Shown one piece after another: positions 3,997 through 25,509 of a DNA stretch of 64,000 nt. Both the position numbers and the translations under genes were made by a program. The notes beneath the pieces are model-generated. The model searched no databases. It had not been told where the DNA came from and worked only from the letters and a program-made list of their open reading frames with translations. Source of the DNA: Fluviicola chungangensis (GTDB lineage: Bacteria > Bacteroidota > Bacteroidia > Flavobacteriales_D > Crocinitomicaceae); NCBI RefSeq assembly GCF_007558725.1, contig NZ_VLPL01000003.1, forward strand, positions 372,001 through 436,000, read 5' to 3'. Each line of letters opens with the position of its first letter. Position 1 is the stretch's first letter.

Positions 3997-4029
3997 ATGG
4001 ACGGCCTTTTGAGCCGTCCATTTTTTTTT
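3997..4029 (+). terminator. Terminator after hpf
   Basis: A perfect 9-bp stem (ATGGACGGC / GCCGTCCAT) with an 8-nt loop is followed by a run of nine T. It separates xerC-hpf from the tRNA-tuf transcript. Confidence 0.9.
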
Positions 4030-4050
4030 GATTTTTTTTCGCTCAACCCC

Positions 4051-4080
4051 TTGCAGTTATTTATTTCTTTACTACATTTG
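4051..4080 (+). promoter_or_regulatory. Promoter of the tRNA-tuf operon
   Basis: TTG at 4051-4053, exactly 19 bp, then TACATTTG at 4073-4080: a full match to the Bacteroidota housekeeping promoter (TTG-N19-TAnnTTTG). Transcription should start near 4087, about 60 nt before the first tRNA. Confidence 0.85.
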
Positions 4081-4146
4081 CAAACCCAAACGGGAAAACA
4101 CTTTAAGAATCGTTCTTTAAAATCGTAATAAAAACCAAACTTTAAT

Positions 4147-4220
4147 GCCGGTGTAGCTCAGCTGGCTAGAGCAGCTGATTTGTAATCAGCAGGTCGGGGG
4201 TTCGAGTCCCTCCACCGGCT
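4147..4220 (+). tRNA. tRNA-Thr (UGU)
   Basis: 74 nt. Acceptor stem GCCGGTG/CACCGGC is perfect, the anticodon stem is GCTGA/TCAGC, the loop TTTGTAA gives anticodon TGT, and the T-arm contains TTCGAGT. First tRNA of a four-tRNA string leading into tuf. Confidence 0.97.
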
Positions 4221-4233
4221 CGCATTAAAGGAT

Positions 4234-4315
4234 GGGAGTGTCGCATAGTGGCTATTGCAGCAGACTGTAAATCTGTCACCTCACGGTATCGCTGGTTCGA
4301 GTCCAGCCACTCCCA
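4234..4315 (+). tRNA. tRNA-Tyr (GUA)
   Basis: 82 nt, class II with a long variable arm. Acceptor stem GGGAGTG/CACTCCC is perfect; the anticodon loop ACTGTAAAT reads GTA; the T-loop is TTCGAGT. Confidence 0.97.
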
Positions 4316-4339
4316 CGACAAGGAAAATTATAATAATAA

Positions 4340-4412
4340 GCGGGAGTAGCTCAGTTGGTAGAGCGTCAGCCTTCCAAGCTGAGGGTCGCGAGTTCGAATC
4401 TCGTCTCCCGCT
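4340..4412 (+). tRNA. tRNA-Gly (UCC)
   Basis: 73 nt. Acceptor stem GCGGGAG/CTCCCGC is perfect; the anticodon loop CTTCCAA reads TCC; the T-loop is TTCGAAT. Confidence 0.97.
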
Positions 4413-4433
4413 CAATTACGAAATAAAGAATAG

Positions 4434-4505
4434 GCCGGTGTAGCTCAGGGGTAGAGCGCTTCCTTGGTAAGGAAGAGGTCACGAGTTCAATTCTCGTCAT
4501 TGGCT
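4434..4505 (+). tRNA. tRNA-Thr (GGU)
   Basis: 72 nt. Acceptor GCCGGTG pairs with CATTGGC through two adjacent G-U wobbles; anticodon stem CTTCC/GGAAG is perfect and the loop TTGGTAA reads GGT. With the UGU tRNA upstream it gives two threonine isoacceptors in one operon. Confidence 0.95.
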
Positions 4506-4514
4506 CTGCAGGGA

Positions 4515-4539
4515 TTCACTCATTAGTTTTATGGGTGAA
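4515..4539 (+). promoter_or_regulatory. Hairpin between the last tRNA and tuf
   Basis: TTCACTCAT pairs with ATGGGTGAA (9 bp, one wobble) around a 7-nt loop and is followed by ATTTTG. It may be an attenuator or a processing site that separates the tRNA precursor from tuf mRNA. The T run is weak, so read-through into tuf is expected. Confidence 0.4.
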
Positions 4540-4591
4540 ATTTTGTATTAGTAAGAAAAAGGTTTATTAACTACGTAACAAATAAAAACAA

Positions 4592-5779
4592 ATGGCTAAG
4601 GAAAGTTTTAATCGTTCCAAACCGCACGTAAACATTGGTACTATTGGTCACGTTGACCACGGTAAGACCACTTTGACTGCGGCTATTTCAAGCGTATTGG
4701 CTGCTAAAGGATTAGCTGCCGTTCGTGATTTCTCTTCAATTGACAACGCACCTGAAGAAAAAGAGCGTGGTATTACTATTAACACGTCACACATTGAGTA
4801 CGAAACAGCTAACCGTCACTACGCACACGTTGACTGTCCAGGTCACGCGGATTACGTAAAGAACATGGTTACTGGTGCTGCACAGATGGATGGAGCGATC
4901 CTGGTAGTTGCTGCTACTGATGGACCGATGCCTCAAACACGTGAGCATATCCTATTAGGAAAACAAGTTGGTGTTCCTCGTCTAGTTGTATTCATGAACA
5001 AAGTGGATATGGTAGATGACGCTGAGTTGTTAGAGCTAGTTGAAATGGAAGTTCGTGAATTGTTGTCTTTCTACGATTACGATGGTGACAATGCACCGGT
5101 TATTCAAGGTTCTGCACTAGGTGCATTGAACGGTGAGCCGGAGTGGGTTGCTAAAGTAGAAGAGTTGATGGACGCGGTTGACAGTTATATCGAATTGCCT
5201 CCTCGTGATGTTGATAAGCCTTTCTTGATGCCGGTTGAAGACGTATTTACGATTACAGGTCGTGGTACAGTAGCAACAGGTCGTATCGAAACAGGAGTTA
5301 TTAACTCTGGAGATCCGGTTGAAATCTTAGGTATGGGTGAAGAGAAATTGACTTCTACTGTAACTGGGGTTGAGATGTTCCGTAAGATCTTGGATCGTGG
5401 AGAAGCTGGTGACAACGTAGGTCTTTTATTACGTGGTATTGAGAAATCTCAAATCAAACGTGGTATGGTTATTTGTAAGCCAGGATCTGTTAAGCCTCAT
5501 GCTGACTTCAAAGCTGAAATCTATGTATTGAAGAAAGAAGAGGGTGGTCGTCACACTCCATTCCATAACAAATACCGTCCTCAGTTCTACTTCCGTACGA
5601 CTGACGTAACTGGAGAGATTTTCTTGACAGACGGACGTGAGATGGTTATGCCAGGTGATAACGTAACAATCAATGTTAAGTTGATCGTACCTGTAGCAAT
5701 GGACAAAGGTCTACGTTTCGCTATCCGTGAGGGTGGTCGTACAGTAGGTGCTGGTCAGGTTACTGAAATCATCGCTTAA
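4592..5779 (+). CDS. tuf: Elongation factor Tu
   Basis: A 395-residue GTPase that delivers aminoacyl-tRNA to the ribosome. G1 is GHVDHGKT near residue 19, G3 is [12 protein letters not shown] near 81, G4 is NKVDM near 136; domain 2 ([13 protein letters not shown]) and domain 3 (GGRHTPF) follow, and the length matches the family. It is transcribed behind four tRNA genes and is followed by a terminator-like hairpin, then tRNA-Trp, secE and nusG. The start is the ATG opening [14 protein letters not shown]. No Shine-Dalgarno is seen, only an A-rich leader. Confidence 0.98.
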
Positions 5780-18884: not shown

Positions 18885-19820
18885 TTACTGAGAAATAATT
18901 GGCTTCAAACCTCTTAATCCCATATCTGTCGGATAATCATTTGAATTTCCGTTTGGTAACAATGGTTCGTATTTGTGGTCCCCATTTACATCATACCATT
19001 CAAAACTTTTGTTGGTAGATAAGGACATCGTACAAGTAATATCCTGGGTTTCATTTCCTGTAATGGTAAACGGTGTGTCGAAACTTCCTGTTACTACACA
19101 AGACCCGGCAGGAACCGGTGAAGTTGCGGACAATGGATTAGGTACGGTTGTAGAAGCAGCTTGTCCTTGAAAGACAATTCCAAGATTTTCAAAGCCCCAA
19201 TAACCTTGCAGTTTGTTTGCGTTCAAGGTAACTGTCTGATTCCAGATTTTGTAATTGGTAATGTAGGTGTTGAACCCTACGAAAGATGCCAATCGGCCTG
19301 TGTAATCCACACCATTGTACAAATAATCCACATCGTAGTTTTGATAGGTCAATGACATGCGAACCCAATTGTAGGTATCCGGAGAAATGTTTTTCAATGG
19401 AATTTTCAGGAAGACCTCATTGTCTCCTTTAATAATCGCTTTGCTAAAATCAACCGCGTTAGAACCACCTGCGGTTGTTTCAGCTCCGTGATACAAAATT
19501 TCACCGGCTCCGAGCTGGGTATACATGTTTTGCGCAAATTCAATATAATGTGCACTCATTCCGTAAAATGTTGGAGACTGAGTGCCATGATTTGCCGGAA
19601 TCGTTGCCGGATTTCCGAAATTGTCCAGGCGTGGGGCCAAAGAGTCAAAATGTAGTTTAATAATTAAATAAGGGCCCGTTTCTTCCGGATAAGTACAACT
19701 TTTGTCATCGGAATTTGCGTTGGAATTGTAATTCGTCGCGTTGGGGTCCGTACAGCCCTTTTTCTTGCATCCCATTGAAGTAGCAGCAAGCAGAACAAGC
19801 AGAAGCGTTAGTTTTTTCAT
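18885..19820 (-). CDS. Lipoprotein with CTDPNATNYN motif
   Basis: 311 residues. The lipobox ATSMGC is followed by KKK, then GCTDPNATNYNSNANSDDKSC, a short disulfide-containing repeat unit found singly in many Bacteroidota surface proteins. The body (LIIKLHFDSLAPRLDNFG, AGSCVVTGSFDTPFTITGN) looks like a beta-sandwich of the MbnP-like type, but that is a weak resemblance. The product is likely an outer-membrane lipoprotein. A possible -7 box (TATTTTTG on the minus strand) lies at 19840-19847. Confidence 0.78.
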   Translation of the reverse strand: MKKLTLLLVLLAATSMGCKKKGCTDPNATNYNSNANSDDKSCTYPEETGPYLIIKLHFDSLAPRLDNFGNPATIPANHGTQSPTFYGMSAHYIEFAQNMYTQLGAGEILYHGAETTAGGSNAVDFSKAIIKGDNEVFLKIPLKNISPDTYNWVRMSLTYQNYDVDYLYNGVDYTGRLASFVGFNTYITNYKIWNQTVTLNANKLQGYWGFENLGIVFQGQAASTTVPNPLSATSPVPAGSCVVTGSFDTPFTITGNETQDITCTMSLSTNKSFEWYDVNGDHKYEPLLPNGNSNDYPTDMGLRGLKPIISQ

Positions 19821-19897: not shown

Positions 19898-20776
19898 CTA
19901 CTTTTTGTTAATCATATAAACCGCTGCTATTCCCAGTAACCCCCCAACAATTGTGTGGATTTCCAATTTTTCACCAAGTATCAGAAAAGAGAAAACAGCC
20001 GCACTGAAGGGAACAATAAAGATGAAACTGCTGGCTTTTTCCGCCCCGATTTTGGAGGTGGCGAAAAAGTAGGTCGTCGTTGCCAAAGTCACGGTAATAA
20101 CACTTGAGAACAGTACATTTCCCCAGAAATGCATATCCGTTGTTTGAACCAACTTACCGATTTCTGTAAAGTCGGAGAAGGGAATGAGGCAGGTCAGCGT
20201 TACAAAATACATCCACCAGGTAAAGGCGAAGGGTGAACCGTATTTCGCAGATTTTGATGTAAATTTGCTCATAACGGCCCATGTAAGTGCACTTAACAGG
20301 AAAAAAAGATTTCCCGGTTCGGCAAAAATATCCTTGTTTCCCCATACCTTTAAAAGGCTCAATCCGGCAATTACACCAAACAGTAAACCGATGATCTCAT
20401 TTTTAGTGGGTTTTTTCCAGTCGATTAACATTCCCAGACCATAAGCCATTACCGGGTTCAGGGTCGTAACCAAAATTCCTCCCGCTCCCGGACTTCCGTT
20501 CTTTAATCCTGCAAGGAAAGTGTAATTATAAGTTGCCATCAGCGTTCCTGAGACCAATAAAAAAGGAATTCCTTTTTTGGAAATGACCAATTTTGTTCTA
20601 AGCAATATGAGCAGAATCAAGAGACTGATTAGGACGAGACTATAACGGAATACTCCAAGTACTGCCGGTGATGCAAAAGAAGTCAGTACTTTGTTGGATG
20701 GCCAGCTGATGCCCCAAATAATCATACTTATAATCATTGCAGCGGTGAGGCTGACAGTGTTGTCAAATCTTGGCAA
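19898..20776 (-). CDS. DMT-family (EamA) transporter
   Basis: About 292 residues with ten hydrophobic segments and two EamA repeats (IIWGISWPSNKVLTSF opening the first; LLSALTWAVMSKFTSK opening the second), plus the conserved SPGAGGILVTTLNPVMAYGLG. These inner-membrane permeases export small metabolites such as amino acids. I chose the TTG at 20776. A GTG at 20827 would give 309 residues, but TACATTTG on the minus strand at 20795-20802 looks like a -7 box, which would put that GTG upstream of the transcript. The ATG at 20737 is a third option. It lies just downstream of the symporter operon and may be partly co-transcribed. Confidence 0.85.
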   Translation of the reverse strand: MPRFDNTVSLTAAMIISMIIWGISWPSNKVLTSFASPAVLGVFRYSLVLISLLILLILLRTKLVISKKGIPFLLVSGTLMATYNYTFLAGLKNGSPGAGGILVTTLNPVMAYGLGMLIDWKKPTKNEIIGLLFGVIAGLSLLKVWGNKDIFAEPGNLFFLLSALTWAVMSKFTSKSAKYGSPFAFTWWMYFVTLTCLIPFSDFTEIGKLVQTTDMHFWGNVLFSSVITVTLATTTYFFATSKIGAEKASSFIFIVPFSAAVFSFLILGEKLEIHTIVGGLLGIAAVYMINKK

Positions 20777-20859
20777 TTTTCCTTTTTTAGAAGGCAAATG
20801 TACACAATGGATCAATTGCACGTGCACATGTGAAAAACTAAAAAAGGCCGTTTTAGATT

Positions 20860-22293
20860 TTAGATCAGACGCCTCTTTCGAATCATAACCCGGTGTGTGA
20901 TGGAATATACCAAGATCGCTGCGGTTAGCCCGAAAATATTTGCATCCAGCTGCCAGGGAAGAGGCCTATCAATCAGGATCAGGATGAGGGTGACGCCGCC
21001 GCCGGTGATCATTGAAAATAAAGCCGGTTGAGGAAAACGCCTTCTTAAGATCAATGCAGCGATTATCGGGACACACAAACCGGAAACCATAAAAGCATAA
21101 GCGTACAACATGAGTGAAATAACGTTTTGCATGACGGATGCTAAAAGAATTGCAATCACCCCGATTAAAAGTGTGGTTATTTGCGAAATCCTTACCACAG
21201 AAGAATTGTTGAATTTCCAGCTTTTGGGAATCAGGTCACCTACCACACTTCCGGACGCTGCCATTAAGCAGCTGTCTGCAGTTGAAAGGACGGCTGAAAA
21301 ATACGCTGCGATTACAATTCCCGCAAACCCAACAGGAAGGATCCGGTGAATCAGCATGGGAAGTCCCATTTCGCTGTCTATTGATGTCCCTTCAGCTACG
21401 GGAATGATTCCTTTTTGAACGGCAACATTCGCAAGCATTCCCAATACAACTCCGGTGAATGCCATAAACGGCCACTCAAGTATTCCGGCAATATACCAGG
21501 CTTTTTTAGCGGCTTTTTCATTTTTACAAGCGAAAATACGCTGGTATAATGTCATCCCTACAAACCAGATCGGAATAATCGTAACACTCCAGTTAACAAT
21601 TTGGCTCCAGGTGATATTGGTGAGAGATAACATGTCTTTGCTTAAGTAGGGTCTGATTCCCTCATATCCTCCCAAAGTAGACCAGGCAATCGGAATCGCC
21701 ACTCCCATTAATCCGAACAGTAAAATAACCCATTGAAAAGTGTCTGTGTAGATCACCGCTTTCATTCCTCCGAGCATGGTATAGAACACCACCACAAAAC
21801 CCATGACCCAAAGCATGATTTCGCTGTCGACAGAAGGAAGAACCGCTGCCGATAATTTTGATCCTGCCAACAACTGTGAACTGGTAAAGCCACTGTAACC
21901 GATGATGCAGATAATAGCTGCGACAAACGCTACTTTTTTGCTGTATAAAAAACCAAATACCTGTGGTAATGTAAGGAAATGCCTTCCATGTGCACGCTGC
22001 CAGTGAAATACTTTGGGAATAAGGACGACCGCGCTTACCCATGCACCGATGAGTCCTGTGAAAAGCATCCAGGAACCTGAAAGTCCCATTGTGAAACCAA
22101 TACCTCCCAAACCGATTGAAAATCCTCCTCCCACATCCGTTGCAACAACCGAGAGCCCGACATGTGAACTGCTCATGTTTCCTCCACCGGCAAAATAATC
22201 GCGTTCATTGCTGTGTTTTCCGGAGAAATAAAGACCCACAGCAAGCATTAAAAGAAAATAGATGATAAAAATTACGATGTCGATCCAAGCCAT
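20860..22293 (-). CDS. Sodium:solute symporter (SSS family)
   Basis: 477 residues with about 13 membrane spans. The N-terminal region (ERDYFAGGGNMSSSHVGLSVVATDVGGGFSIG) and the YFSAVLSTADSCLMAASGS segment are the SSS signatures; the serine/threonine pair in the latter belongs to the sodium site. It imports an organic solute with Na+, but the substrate cannot be read from sequence. It is last of four leftward genes joined by gaps of 0-4 bp (GNAT, racemase, MscS, SSS), suggesting its substrate relates to the racemase reaction. Confidence 0.9.
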   Translation of the reverse strand: MAWIDIVIFIIYFLLMLAVGLYFSGKHSNERDYFAGGGNMSSSHVGLSVVATDVGGGFSIGLGGIGFTMGLSGSWMLFTGLIGAWVSAVVLIPKVFHWQRAHGRHFLTLPQVFGFLYSKKVAFVAAIICIIGYSGFTSSQLLAGSKLSAAVLPSVDSEIMLWVMGFVVVFYTMLGGMKAVIYTDTFQWVILLFGLMGVAIPIAWSTLGGYEGIRPYLSKDMLSLTNITWSQIVNWSVTIIPIWFVGMTLYQRIFACKNEKAAKKAWYIAGILEWPFMAFTGVVLGMLANVAVQKGIIPVAEGTSIDSEMGLPMLIHRILPVGFAGIVIAAYFSAVLSTADSCLMAASGSVVGDLIPKSWKFNNSSVVRISQITTLLIGVIAILLASVMQNVISLMLYAYAFMVSGLCVPIIAALILRRRFPQPALFSMITGGGVTLILILIDRPLPWQLDANIFGLTAAILVYSITHRVMIRKRRLI

Positions 22294-22297
22294 AGGT

Positions 22298-23377
22298 TTA
22301 AGCGTTTAATGTTTCGGGTGAAAGAGGTTTCTCCGAATGCACGAATAATGTTTGTGTCGGATAAGCAAATTCAATACCTAACTGTTCAAAAAGTCCATAG
22401 ATACCGAGGTATATTTTCTCTTGTTTGTCCATATAAAAATCAAAATCAGTGGATAATACATGATAGACAAACTCAAAATTGAGGCTTGAATCACCAAAGC
22501 CTGAAAAGTTACCGCGTTCATACTCCACATCCTGTTCGGACTCAATAATCGATTTTACCATCCCGGGAATCTGTTTTAATTGGTCATGAGAAGTTTGATA
22601 GGTAACTCCGAGCTGAAAAACAATTCGTCGTTTTTCCAACCGTTTGTAATTGTGTACCCTTGAATTTGTTAAATCCGTGTTGGAACAGACCAGTTGTTCT
22701 CCTCCCAGGGTTCTTATCCGGGTGGTTTTGATTCCGATCTGTTCAATGGTTCCCGATTTATCATCAACAATAATAAAATCTCCGATCTCAAACGGGCGGT
22801 CAAAGAATATGACAAAGTAGCTGAAAAGATCTCCCAGGATTGCCTGTGCCGCCAGGGCAATAGCAATACCACCAATTCCCAAACCGGCAAGTAAAGTTGT
22901 TATATCGTAGCCGAGATTGTCGAATAAAAACAAAATACCGATGAACCAAATGAGAACGTTTACAACAATGATCAACCCATTTGCCTGTTCCATTTTATCG
23001 ATTCCTCCGTTGTTTTTCTTTACGAAAGAACTGACTATTTTCTTAAAAATGCTGCTAATGACACGCAAGCTGAAGTATGTAAAAACAACCAGGTAAGCAG
23101 TATGTAAAACGAACCGGATTTTGACCGTAAATTGAAGATAGTAGATCGAAAAATAGACCGCGCTGATATAAAGCACCGGGATGACGAACCGTTCGATACC
23201 GTCAATCAAATGATCGTCCCATGTATTGACCGTTTTTATCGAATGAGCTTTAATTTTACGAATAACCAATAAGCTGAAGAGTTTAATGACAATCATTGTT
23301 CCCAACGCAATCCCAAGAGCAACAATCCATGCATATAGGCTATTACCCAGAAAATGGTAAGCGAGTAGTTTTTTCAT
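22298..23377 (-). CDS. Small-conductance mechanosensitive channel (MscS family)
   Basis: 359 residues. Several N-terminal membrane helices precede the pore-lining helix and linker GLGIGGIAIALAAQAILGDL, followed by FSYFVIFFDRPFEIGDFIIV, the MscS core, and a cytoplasmic beta domain (GTIEQIGIKTTRIRTLGGEQ). Such channels release solutes on hypo-osmotic shock. The gene is 4 bp from both neighbours in the racemase-symporter operon, which suggests that a solute accumulated by the symporter is balanced by a release route (inference). Confidence 0.9.
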   Translation of the reverse strand: MKKLLAYHFLGNSLYAWIVALGIALGTMIVIKLFSLLVIRKIKAHSIKTVNTWDDHLIDGIERFVIPVLYISAVYFSIYYLQFTVKIRFVLHTAYLVVFTYFSLRVISSIFKKIVSSFVKKNNGGIDKMEQANGLIIVVNVLIWFIGILFLFDNLGYDITTLLAGLGIGGIAIALAAQAILGDLFSYFVIFFDRPFEIGDFIIVDDKSGTIEQIGIKTTRIRTLGGEQLVCSNTDLTNSRVHNYKRLEKRRIVFQLGVTYQTSHDQLKQIPGMVKSIIESEQDVEYERGNFSGFGDSSLNFEFVYHVLSTDFDFYMDKQEKIYLGIYGLFEQLGIEFAYPTQTLFVHSEKPLSPETLNA

Positions 23378-23381
23378 AATT

Positions 23382-24491
23382 TTATTTCGATGCTAATACG
23401 CTGTTTTTTGAATCACTGAGTTCAAATCGTTTATCTACATAATCGGAGTTCATGATCCGTAAAATACCCATGTAATTCATGCTGAACTCAATGAGATTTC
23501 CCACTTCCAGGCCTCTGGGGTTTGTACCTAAATCCAGCACGAACATATCTGAACTTACACCGACGATCGTCATGTCTTTAGAGACCGGTTGAATAGTTGT
23601 TTCATCAATATCCAATAAGCCAATGTCAACAATAGCCCGGAACGAAGATGTTCCCAGTAAGGTCTCGTCAATGGAAAGTTCCTGCATTTGTAAATTCTTC
23701 CCTAGTTCCCCGTTTGGAACTAACGGTTTTTCGCTCAGTTCAATGATCTCGGCATAAAGCTTGAAAATATCCTGATGCAATTCCGGATGCGGATTGTTGT
23801 TATAGACATCTGTTCCGAGAAACAAGGTTTCACCGACCCTGAAATGATTGACCCCCAAAGGAAGAAGTCCCTGCTCAATGAGTGGTATTGTTACAGAGGC
23901 TCCTCCGGATATGTAGGGAATTACCTTATTGAATCGAGCTTCGATCAATTGTTTATAAAGACAGAGCTGGATCAGTTTGTCCTGGTTCGGAAGGACACCG
24001 GACATACAGGTCAGGTTGGTCCCGATTCCGACAATGGCGATATTGGGCAGGTCAAATACCGCTTCGTAAAAATCAATGAATTGTTCTCTCATTACTCCTT
24101 CGCGCAATTCTCCCATTTCGATCATGATCACCACCTTATGTGTTTTATTGCGCAGAACGGCTGCCTTTGAAAGCAGTTTAATGGTTTCCAATTCGGTGTT
24201 AAAACTGATATCAGCGAATTCGATAATCCGGGAAACCATCCTTTTTGGCGGAGGTTTGATAAAAACGGTCTCAATTTCAAGGGCAATGGATTTGATGATT
24301 TTCAGGTTGGTAATTCTGCTGTCGCAAACCTGTTTCAGGTTCAGTTCCCGGAAGATTGCTTCCAGGAATTTGCGATTTCCACAAAACACTTTGACAACAA
24401 CGGACCATTCTATCCGATGCGATTTGAATAGGTTGTCCAAATACTGAAAATTTGCTTTGAGCTTATGTGTGTTGAGTGTAATATATGCCAT
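23382..24491 (-). CDS. Alanine/ornithine racemase-family PLP enzyme
   Basis: 369 residues of the fold type III PLP family. The Schiff-base lysine is in WSVVVKVFCGN near residue 34; IEMGELREGVMRE and IVGIGTNLTCMSG fit the barrel, and GGASVTIPLIEQG plus FRVGETLFLG are typical of the alanine/ornithine racemase subgroup rather than the alr type. It would interconvert L- and D-forms of an amino acid. Its ATG directly abuts the GNAT stop codon (TAA then ATG) and MscS follows after 4 bp. Substrate unknown. Confidence 0.85.
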   Translation of the reverse strand: MAYITLNTHKLKANFQYLDNLFKSHRIEWSVVVKVFCGNRKFLEAIFRELNLKQVCDSRITNLKIIKSIALEIETVFIKPPPKRMVSRIIEFADISFNTELETIKLLSKAAVLRNKTHKVVIMIEMGELREGVMREQFIDFYEAVFDLPNIAIVGIGTNLTCMSGVLPNQDKLIQLCLYKQLIEARFNKVIPYISGGASVTIPLIEQGLLPLGVNHFRVGETLFLGTDVYNNNPHPELHQDIFKLYAEIIELSEKPLVPNGELGKNLQMQELSIDETLLGTSSFRAIVDIGLLDIDETTIQPVSKDMTIVGVSSDMFVLDLGTNPRGLEVGNLIEFSMNYMGILRIMNSDYVDKRFELSDSKNSVLASK

Positions 24492-24935
24492 TTATGAATA
24501 TTTGGTTAATCTCATTTCAAGGTATTTATTTACAAATCCCACTTTTTCATATAAACGCAAAGCCGGATTATCCGCTTCAACATGAAGGGCAATGCTTCCG
24601 TTTGTGTTTTCGATGGTGCTCTTCATAAGTTTTTTTCCTATTCCTGTTCCCCGGTAATCCTTATGAGTGGCAATGTAAACCAGGATATTTTCAGGAATAT
24701 ATCCTTCCATGCCGGTTATATTGACTACGACGACACCGGTAAGCAATCTGTCATAATGCGCAGTAATGATTAGACCACCTTTATTTTTTTCGGGTGAGAG
24801 CGCGTAATTGATTGCTTTAAGAATATCCTGTTCTGAGTCACCATATTGTTCCAGGTGTTCATGAAGAAAAGCAACTAGTTCTTTCTTTTCAGACTCTGTG
24901 AGCGGGTTTTCGGGGGTGTAAATATGTTGTATCAT
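24492..24935 (-). CDS. GNAT-family N-acetyltransferase
   Basis: 147 residues from the ATG at 24935; an ATG at 24971 would add 12 residues. The acetyl-CoA-binding motif is ILVYIATHKDYRGTGIGKKLM (R/Q-x-x-G-x-G/A as RGTGIG), and the C-terminal part ALHVEADNPALRLYEKVGF is typical of amino-acid acetyltransferases. First gene of the tight operon with the racemase, MscS channel and symporter; acetylation of the D-amino acid or related amine is a reasonable guess. Confidence 0.85.
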   Translation of the reverse strand: MIQHIYTPENPLTESEKKELVAFLHEHLEQYGDSEQDILKAINYALSPEKNKGGLIITAHYDRLLTGVVVVNITGMEGYIPENILVYIATHKDYRGTGIGKKLMKSTIENTNGSIALHVEADNPALRLYEKVGFVNKYLEMRLTKYS

Positions 24936-25509
24936 AAAAAATAGTTTGGCGCTCTCTGAAGCGAAGTTCATGAGTGCGCCTGATTTTGCGGGCTGTGCCC
25001 TTATTTCAATTAATTATTCCGGGAGGTTTAAGTCCCGAATGACAGCACTGCCGGCGGCAACACTTAGTGTGAGGAATTGACACAAATCTTTTAGACAAAA
25101 TCCCGGCGGGATTAACAGATCTGAATTGTCAATTCGAAAAATTTCCTTTATCAAGTTAGTTAAATTTGATGGGTTAAAAAAAAAGACGCCTCGCCAGCAC
25201 GCGGGTTGAATGGTTTACAAGCTCCTTTTTACAGAAAATCGGGTGTTTGGGAATACCAGGTTAAATGATTCGCTTTTCGTTGCAGATGAAGGGATTCACA
25301 GGATTTGGCTCTGTCAGAAAAAGGATTTAAATGTTAAAATATCATAAAATTATTCGGTCTTGTCATCAGTCTCATTGATTACCATTGAAAAAACACACGT
25401 ATTGGATAACTATGAAAAAATGCTTTGACCAACAACAATTATCCAAAAAGATGGATTTGTCTTAACAGGATTAGCGGCTCTTTTGGAATGGATTTCGTAT
25501 TTTCGTTGT
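24936..25509. other. Intergenic region between divergent genes
   Basis: 574 bp with no supported gene. It holds several GC-rich palindromes in AT-rich surroundings: ATTCCGGGA/TCCCGAAT near 25016-25040, GCCGGCGGC near 25051-25059, AATCCCGGCGGGATT near 25099-25113, and TTGGATAA/TTATCCAA arms near 25402-25446. The promoters of the leftward operon and of the DUF3467 gene must lie here, but neither shows a full TTG-TAnnTTTG match. A 17-codon frame (MKKCFDQQQLSK...) near 25411 is too short to support. Confidence 0.5.

Follow-up and report, generated by a model that had tools for sequence, protein, structure and literature searches.

A predicted amino-acid racemisation and N-acetylation module of Bacteroidota in a four-gene cassette of Fluviicola chungangensis

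A 64,000-nucleotide stretch of the Fluviicola chungangensis genome (assembly GCF_007558725.1, contig NZ_VLPL01000003.1, forward-strand positions 372,001 to 436,000; the window, in whose coordinates the cassette positions are given) carries a compact cassette at 20860-24935 for a GNAT-family N-acetyltransferase (GNAT), a pyridoxal phosphate (PLP) racemase related to ornithine racemase Orr (RAC), an MscS-type mechanosensitive channel and a sodium:solute symporter (SSS). From their almost perfect co-occurrence over 392 genomes of the phylum Bacteroidota we conclude that GNAT and RAC are functional partners. With slightly more confidence than doubt, the cassette is predicted from its genes to be one variant of a Bacteroidota module for amino-acid racemisation and N-acetylation, whose substrate is most likely of the ornithine/lysine type. 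This reading draws on the genes and their motifs, on the co-occurrence of GNAT and RAC, on the linkage of SSS and of a second enzyme pair to them, and on the presence or absence of the cassette as one block; from these we infer the enzyme activities, the substrate class, the order and direction of the steps, and their purpose.

The cassette and its proteins

24492-24935, minus strand: GNAT-family N-acetyltransferase, 147 residues, first gene of the cassette
23382-24491, minus strand: RAC, Orr-type PLP racemase, 369 residues
22298-23377, minus strand: MscS-type mechanosensitive channel, 359 residues, a lineage-specific member
20860-22293, minus strand: SSS, sodium:solute symporter (SSF), 477 residues, orthologous to module symporters elsewhere
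20741-25492 (approximate): block absent between EamA and DUF3467 in five of six examined congeners that lack RAC; its first bases possibly belong to the EamA start

The initial annotation had described four genes packed with gaps of 0-4 bp, and scans of open reading frames (ORFs) and profiles confirmed families and coordinates, with intergenic gaps of 0, 4 and 4 bp, the first being a direct stop-ATG junction. An alternative in-frame ATG at 24971 would extend GNAT to 159 residues; the start at 24935 aligns better with seven relatives. The protein belongs to the GNAT family both by profile (PF13508, 3e-12, above cut-off) and by its acetyl-CoA motif RGxGxG, kept at a level of at least 90% in 60 aligned sequences, the window's own included. 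Its AlphaFold model (predicted local distance difference test score, pLDDT, of 92) shows a plain GNAT fold, and the nearest solved structures are generic N-acetyltransferases, such that the fold search was set aside as uninformative on the substrate.

RAC matches PF01168 (Ala_racemase_N, 2e-10) and leaves Ala_racemase_C of Pfam unmatched at E 0.001, and its sole NCBIfam match is the ornithine racemase Orr (NF040742, 2e-91), at 306.7 bits below the cut-off of 480. The model of RAC (pLDDT 83.5, built on 8 sequences) adopts the alanine-racemase fold and has the fold of a fold-type III PLP racemase; BsrV and the alanine, lysine and serine racemases head the Foldseek matches (best E 4e-17, template modelling score, TM, 0.70). 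Searched against solved structures, the sequence alone gave no match at E 0.001, its profile gave weak matches to a lysine and an alanine racemase, and one single-protein scan of viral contigs returned no relative of RAC. The channel carries the MscS domain (PF00924, 3e-18; PF21088 and PF21082, all above their cut-offs). The symporter is a member of the SSF family (PF00474, 5e-40, 137.9 bits versus a cut-off of 22.8) with a STADS motif kept at a level of at least 90% in 34 aligned sequences, and nothing closely similar to it is encoded elsewhere in its genome (the next match is at 26%, E 9e-6).

Recurrence of the partners and presence as one block

Among the 392 phylum genomes RAC was found in 67 (E ≤ 1e-79) and GNAT in 68 (E ≤ 1e-20), and all 67 RAC genomes are shared when the two listings are compared by eye; the remaining genome (G224) has GNAT alone. 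Both genes lie close together on one contig in 65 of these 67, and on separate contigs in G267 and G501. Two genomes (G304 and G484) hold more distant racemases (E 4e-57 and 6e-61) with no GNAT at threshold, and eight others gave only weak matches (E of at least 5e-7). Neighbourhoods were obtained for the window genome and 56 others of the 67 RAC genomes, the other 10 being represented by match coordinates; 60 regions were fetched from the phylum sample, among which G304, G484, G340 and G224 fall outside the 67.

The neighbourhood survey combined the window's own family (150 genomes, 23 with a match), the phylum sample (77 of 392 with a match) and named genomes (7 loci, from a scan with a single protein). 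It yielded 85 labelled loci (the window, L026-L050, L080-L119 and L136-L154), of which L097 gave no RAC. Four of the remaining 84, all without GNAT by tblastn, were dropped to leave 80 core loci: L048 as a fragment of a gene split across two contigs (the other part, L047, was kept), and L050, L094 and L095 as divergent. A locus with GNAT only (L155) is not part of the tally, and in eight core loci RAC lies within 3 kb of an end of the locus's own stretch. Partners were counted on the same strand within 5 kb at tblastn scores of 80 bits for GNAT, 300 for SSS, 150 for M20, 200 for ALR, 100 for M23 and 80 for MscS, M20 being an amidohydrolase and ALR an alanine-racemase-like second racemase. Aminotransferases were counted at 300 bits within 9.5 kb on either strand, with the end of a lysine transaminase in L113 (99 bits) excluded.

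By this count GNAT accompanies RAC in all 80 core loci, SSS in 48, M20 in 36 and ALR in 34; rarer companions are an M23-like protein (24), a universal stress protein (5), MscS (4) and a MarR regulator (4). M20 and ALR occur together in 34 loci, which is 34 of the 36 with M20, while in 18 of the 80 GNAT is the only labelled partner. Outside the three Fluviicola genomes GNAT lies upstream of RAC in 77/77 loci, within 200 bp (aligned ends) in 61. The neighbours of the cassette in the window served as control: EamA, a 311-residue ORF and DUF3467 recur in 0/77 loci, as against 77/77 for GNAT, 45/77 for SSS and 1/77 for MscS. The SSS orthologues are spread over 12 family labels, with the gene standing first, last or between the others and the M20-ALR pair lying between GNAT and RAC or after RAC; the gene order is variable, and therefore the set has been kept together through rearrangement. 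Three loci (L081, L084 and L089) have a different SSS below threshold. The conserved family motifs of ALR, M20 and SSS are kept among the relatives, and named carriers include Chryseobacterium, Taibaiella and Fluviicola. A plasmid of Persicobacter bears the order SSS-GNAT-M20-ALR-RAC and, ≈ 13 kb away, a second GNAT-RAC pair.

In the initial annotation it was proposed that recurrence of racemase, MscS and SSS in distant genomes would mark a functional module, and that adjacency confined to close relatives, with the racemase in unrelated contexts, would speak against one. The recurrence holds for GNAT with RAC and for SSS, which supports a functional module of these three, but not for MscS: the full set of four, channel included, turned up nowhere but in the window and two congeners, yet the racemase does not sit in random contexts. 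M20, the second racemase and the M23-like protein, common partners elsewhere, are absent from the window. The best match of the module ALR in the window genome is 34%, in a 761-residue frame as expected of what we take to be a fused MurF-Alr, and that of the module M20 is 28%; this genome holds only the GNAT-RAC half and SSS, with no close copy of M20-ALR.

Three of the small M23-like module proteins (L117 8556-9152, L108 6416-7003, L088 5806-6462) were scanned, and their best match is a part of NF004799 (1015 residues), above any murein hydrolase model. Proteins of this type combine a kinase with an aminotransferase, their substrates being hydroxylysine or ethanolamine phosphate. No signal peptide is obvious by eye in the M23-like proteins, and D and H positions are conserved in the 8 aligned. 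In four loci (L031, L032, L098 and L111, two of them Chryseobacterium) the order is universal stress protein, GNAT, racemase and AraC regulator. The MarR gene lies in L040, L041, L044 and L045; the L040 protein has a SarA-like family as its best NCBIfam match, below cut-off.

The cassette also comes and goes as a unit. Eleven congeners in the family search lack a racemase match, and the EamA/DUF3467 site was examined in six. In five of these six EamA and DUF3467 are direct neighbours, separated by a short gap; the block that is either there or missing as a whole thus comprises GNAT-RAC-MscS-SSS and ≈ 0.5 kb upstream. In the sixth (L174) an ORF resembling a tetratricopeptide-repeat histidine kinase (by eye, 4021-5754) occupies the site, a possible hot spot of insertion. 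Homology with the empty sites breaks off at 20737-20740 on the left side and picks up again at ≈ 25493 on the right. A search for signs of an origin from a mobile element found no repeats of 14 nt or longer at the block ends and no tRNA beside it, and its G+C content (39-44%) lies within the range of the window (35-45%). The nearest named relative is a metagenome-assembled genome (MAG) of Fluviicola, with a racemase 87% identical to RAC; the closest racemases outside the genus, in a Crocinitomicaceae MAG (72%) and in Taibaiella (68%), suggest, at the level of sequence, horizontal movement. EamA (19898-20827, minus strand, 32 bp after SSS) was considered as a fifth operon member and rejected, for it stays at the empty sites and is found in 0/77 loci elsewhere. 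The 311-residue ORF (18885-19820) begins like a lipoprotein and matches neither Pfam nor NCBIfam at E 0.001; it adjoins EamA in L026, in L027 and in five of the six examined congeners without RAC.

We take the channel to be a lineage-specific add-on of Fluviicola, possibly an efflux valve; that it is a functional part of the module there, and no bystander, we regard as doubtful. Its four loci are the window, the two nearest congeners and L030, and by a rough estimate, with about 5 MscS genes per 3,500 (assumed) and ten slots per locus, about one chance neighbour is expected in 80 loci. A role in the module is favoured by a gene order that all three Fluviicola genomes have in common (gaps of 4-11 bp), by the channel's coming and going with the block, by the L030 subfamily member two genes after RAC, and by the window genome's lack of another MscS this similar (one match at ≤ 1e-40). 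Against this, the channel is missing from 76 of the 80 loci, and a second MscS, 53-55% identical, lies elsewhere in two of the three block-bearing Fluviicola genomes, as it does in two block-free congeners. The window and L030 channels form a clade versus other family members (support 1.0), while the inner order has a node support of 0.055, so that the L030 and Fluviicola channels may have been joined to RAC either once or twice.

The racemase family, its second transferase and the substrate

In a FastTree phylogeny of 97 racemases those paired with GNAT form one group (82/82, split support 1.0), and a branch of 0.72 sets it apart from the remaining 15. Racemases paired with GNAT (82), akin to Orr (4) and paired with DUF1611 (8) have 22 residues in common, including K34, R130, N159, C162, R218 and Y340. 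The predicted PLP lysine and ring-nitrogen arginine of fold-type III are thus both conserved, as K34 and R218, roles that we assign by analogy. At ten further positions the GNAT-paired clade and the Orr-like group differ, each being conserved in itself (e.g. M316 versus H and K79 versus R); the substrate of RAC may therefore differ from that of Orr.

The DUF1611-paired racemases form an eight-member group (support 0.993) made up of six plasmid records of Vibrio and Roseobacter and the Bacteroidota loci L050 and L094. Both genes are annotated in the six plasmid records, with an overlap of 4 bp; the overlaps in L050 and L094 are ≈ 20 bp (longest ORF). The plasmid pairs are as follows.

L168, 5778-8116: DUF1611-racemase pair, 4-bp overlap
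L170, 4790-7107: DUF1611-racemase pair, 4-bp overlap
L172, 4796-7080: DUF1611-racemase pair, 4-bp overlap
L181, 1784-4098: DUF1611-racemase pair, 4-bp overlap
L185, 2757-5128: DUF1611-racemase pair, 4-bp overlap
L186, 2856-5107: DUF1611-racemase pair, 4-bp overlap

A further plasmid case, from V. cyclitrophicus, was found by tblastn and lies outside the tree. Racemase matches were obtained in 18 plasmid records, and in the 16 examined DUF1611 adjoins the racemase in seven (H4, H5, H6, H9, H15, H16 and H18) and GNAT in one (H1, Persicobacter); H2, H3, H7, H8, H10, H11, H12 and H17 showed neither by tblastn. DUF1611 is the family of DgcN, which NCBIfam names an N-acetyltransferase; the L050 protein reaches 150 of the 480 bits required for DgcN. 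Judged from sequence, the pairing of an Orr-type racemase with an N-acetyltransferase thus recurs with two unrelated transferases, GNAT and DUF1611.

Other contexts of the racemase family, by their predicted gene content, concern ornithine and arginine. The L095 and L188 racemases lie in ornithine fermentation loci, L095 with an Or-4 model at 691.7 bits (cut-off 600) and L188 with OraS-, OraE- and Or-4-like ORFs by eye. The Or-4-context models were run on L095 and on window proteins, and a scan of seven window proteins, RAC and those near it, showed no D-ornithine aminomutase or GlmL-like Or-4 context. An annotated D-amino acid dehydrogenase precedes the racemase in L169 and L184, and a similar ORF (by eye) does so in L183; L169 additionally has a 5-guanidino-2-oxopentanoate decarboxylase. 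In these three (L169 4677-8131, L184 2695-6131, L183 2735-5773) the racemase has a long C-terminal extension (≈ 595 residues), and in both annotated records RidA follows; arginine may be routed by way of D-arginine here. Next to argT and hisJ, a Salmonella plasmid record (L182, 584-6068) has two racemase and two permease genes in succession.

Further clues come from the neighbours of the module. In the 17 loci of one family (f24) an ornithine aminotransferase occurs in 13 and a lysine 6-transaminase in 8, within 9.5 kb and divergent from the operon; of four such proteins scanned, three match ornithine aminotransferase (671-677 bits, cut-off 378) and one lysine 6-transaminase (687, cut-off 521). 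The operon of L046 adjoins what by eye is a cluster for arginine biosynthesis, where argininosuccinate synthase models matched below cut-off. Taken together with the NF004799 matches of the M23-like proteins, the clues favour a basic or diamino acid, without naming one.

Several observations weigh against this reading. The aminotransferase linkage is confined to f24 and may stem from the way genomes of this family are ordered, and the ornithine aminotransferase of the window genome lies elsewhere, away from the cassette. Ornithine itself may not be the substrate, to judge by the missed Orr cut-off and the differences at M316 and K79. As for DUF1611, DgcN is described, in the accessible portion of the source, as the key gene of a pathway that racemises irreversibly and concerns acidic D-amino acids (PMC12363236), so its pairing with the racemase is not evidence for a basic substrate. 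GNAT could acetylate something unrelated to the RAC product; an orthologous SSS is absent from 32 of the 80 loci; and the GNAT-RAC distance correlation is moderate (r 0.42 over 82 gene pairs), that of RAC and SSS being 0.67 over 48 pairs.

A search of the open-access literature, judged by title and start of abstract and with most subscription papers outside it, returned no paper on this gene set, on an operon of racemase, N-acetyltransferase and sodium solute symporter in Bacteroidetes, or on DUF1611 with a racemase: the enzyme families are known, and their combination, which is strictly conserved, is one of which no description was found there. RacX of a Flavobacteriales strain was taken as another family, as it is compared with the PLP-independent EcL-DER in the accessible portion of that paper, which also mentions a KEGG-annotated ornithine racemase in the RacX-bearing strain (PMC12838360).

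Proposed pathway, alternatives and known systems

In the proposed scheme, RAC would convert a basic amino acid between its L and D forms, the substrate being most likely of the ornithine/lysine type. A reversible racemase alone cannot drive the formation of one enantiomer, whereas acetylation of one form can; the dedicated GNAT would do this with acetyl-CoA and render the racemisation one-way. SSS would import the amino acid or its acetyl derivative by means of Na+, in relatives M20 and ALR would supply the reverse half (removal of the acetyl group and re-inversion), and MscS would possibly be an efflux valve added in this genus. The import, inversion and acetylation put forward in the initial annotation fit this scheme; an osmolyte function and venting are merely possible, and channel-based venting gains no support from recurrence, three of the four MscS loci being the window and its nearest congeners.

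A more elaborate version is a two-stroke store, in which GNAT-RAC would make the acetylated D-form of a basic amino acid, M20-ALR would revert it, SSS would import it and the Fluviicola MscS would vent it; perhaps the side-chain amine is acetylated, which would leave the alpha amine free for PLP racemases, with RAC acting on the free and ALR on the acetylated amino acid. We hold this version to be improbable. If true, it would be a reserve or osmolyte of a new class, built on N-acetyl-D-amino acids and spread across Bacteroidota, of which marine Pseudomonadota would have a version with DUF1611.

On the other hand, the module might serve the scavenging or detoxification of D-amino acids: SSS would take up D-ornithine, D-lysine or diaminopimelate-like residues of the cell wall, RAC would convert them to the L-form, GNAT would acetylate a surplus or toxic enantiomer, and the M20, ALR and M23-like proteins of relatives would complete the salvage of cell-wall peptides. 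The M23-like protein of 24 loci with its conserved D and H positions, the VanY/M15 peptidase beside the DUF1611-racemase pair of L050, and the L-ornithine and L-lysine aminotransferases near the f24 operons are all consistent with such a role. One racemase would suffice for a plain D-to-L conversion, however, acetylation costs acetyl-CoA, and in 18 loci GNAT has RAC as its sole labelled company, which together make this explanation rather unlikely. Still less credence is given to a compatible-solute module, with an acetylated (D-)amino acid as osmolyte, uptake by SSS, release by MscS and breakdown by M20-ALR. The channels of the window block and L030 belong to one subfamily, stress protein and MarR genes occur in 5 and 4 of the 80 loci, and M20 is similar to DoeB2, which deacetylates N-acetyl-diaminobutyrate when ectoine is broken down (177 bits versus a cut-off of 550); yet MscS lies in only 4 of the 80 loci, where about one is already expected by chance, and the named carriers, Chryseobacterium, Taibaiella and Fluviicola among them, are not known as halophiles. 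Finally, GNAT might modify a protein such as RAC or SSS, the pair then being an enzyme and its regulator. The protein N-terminal acetyltransferases NatC and RimI are indeed among its nearest folds, but such resemblances are unspecific (TM no higher than 0.74, at 11-24% identity), the M20 linkage fits a small acetylated metabolite, and DUF1611, the family of an amino-acid N-acetyltransferase as far as the accessible part of the source goes (PMC12363236), fills the same place elsewhere, such that this option appears very improbable.

The racemase with a dedicated N-acetyltransferase is found in about one-sixth of the sampled Bacteroidota genomes (67/392), and with a transferase of another family on plasmids of Vibrio and Roseobacter. 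Should the pair function as we infer, it would be an unrecognised route to make, store or clear D-amino acids, with a bearing on D-amino acid turnover and on many genes named just 'alanine/ornithine racemase family', 'GNAT' or 'DUF1611'. The substrate question is directly testable with two small enzymes.

Comparison with known systems places the module among several of them. RAC has its fold in common with alanine, broad-spectrum and lysine racemases (BsrV, Alr, 4dza), at 11-17% identity among the 50 Foldseek matches listed. SSS belongs to the same SSF family as the sodium/proline symporter PutP, whose equivalog cut-off it fails (136 versus 515.5 bits). Ectoine turnover (EctA/DoeB2 with a MarR-type regulator) likewise has an acetyltransferase, an M20 deacetylase and, as in some module loci, MarR; the module M20 is far below the DoeB2 cut-off, however, the module has racemases, and no EctB/EctC-type genes were noticed at its loci, although no search was aimed at them. 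The Orr of ornithine fermentation is of the same PLP racemase family as RAC, with the 22 common residues including the predicted PLP lysine K34, and the Acetoanaerobium homologue beside OraS/OraE/Or-4-like ORFs is 35% identical to RAC; but aminomutase genes adjoin Orr, whereas GNAT adjoins RAC, which falls in a separate tree group (split support 1.0). The DgcN/DgcA pathway of D-glutamate consists of a DUF1611 N-acetyltransferase and an epimerase. It combines N-acetylation with amino acid inversion according to the same logic as predicted for GNAT-RAC, and its DUF1611 family partners the sister group of RAC's racemases; unlike DgcN/DgcA, the window has a GNAT as its transferase, and inversion would fall to a PLP racemase, which needs a free amine.

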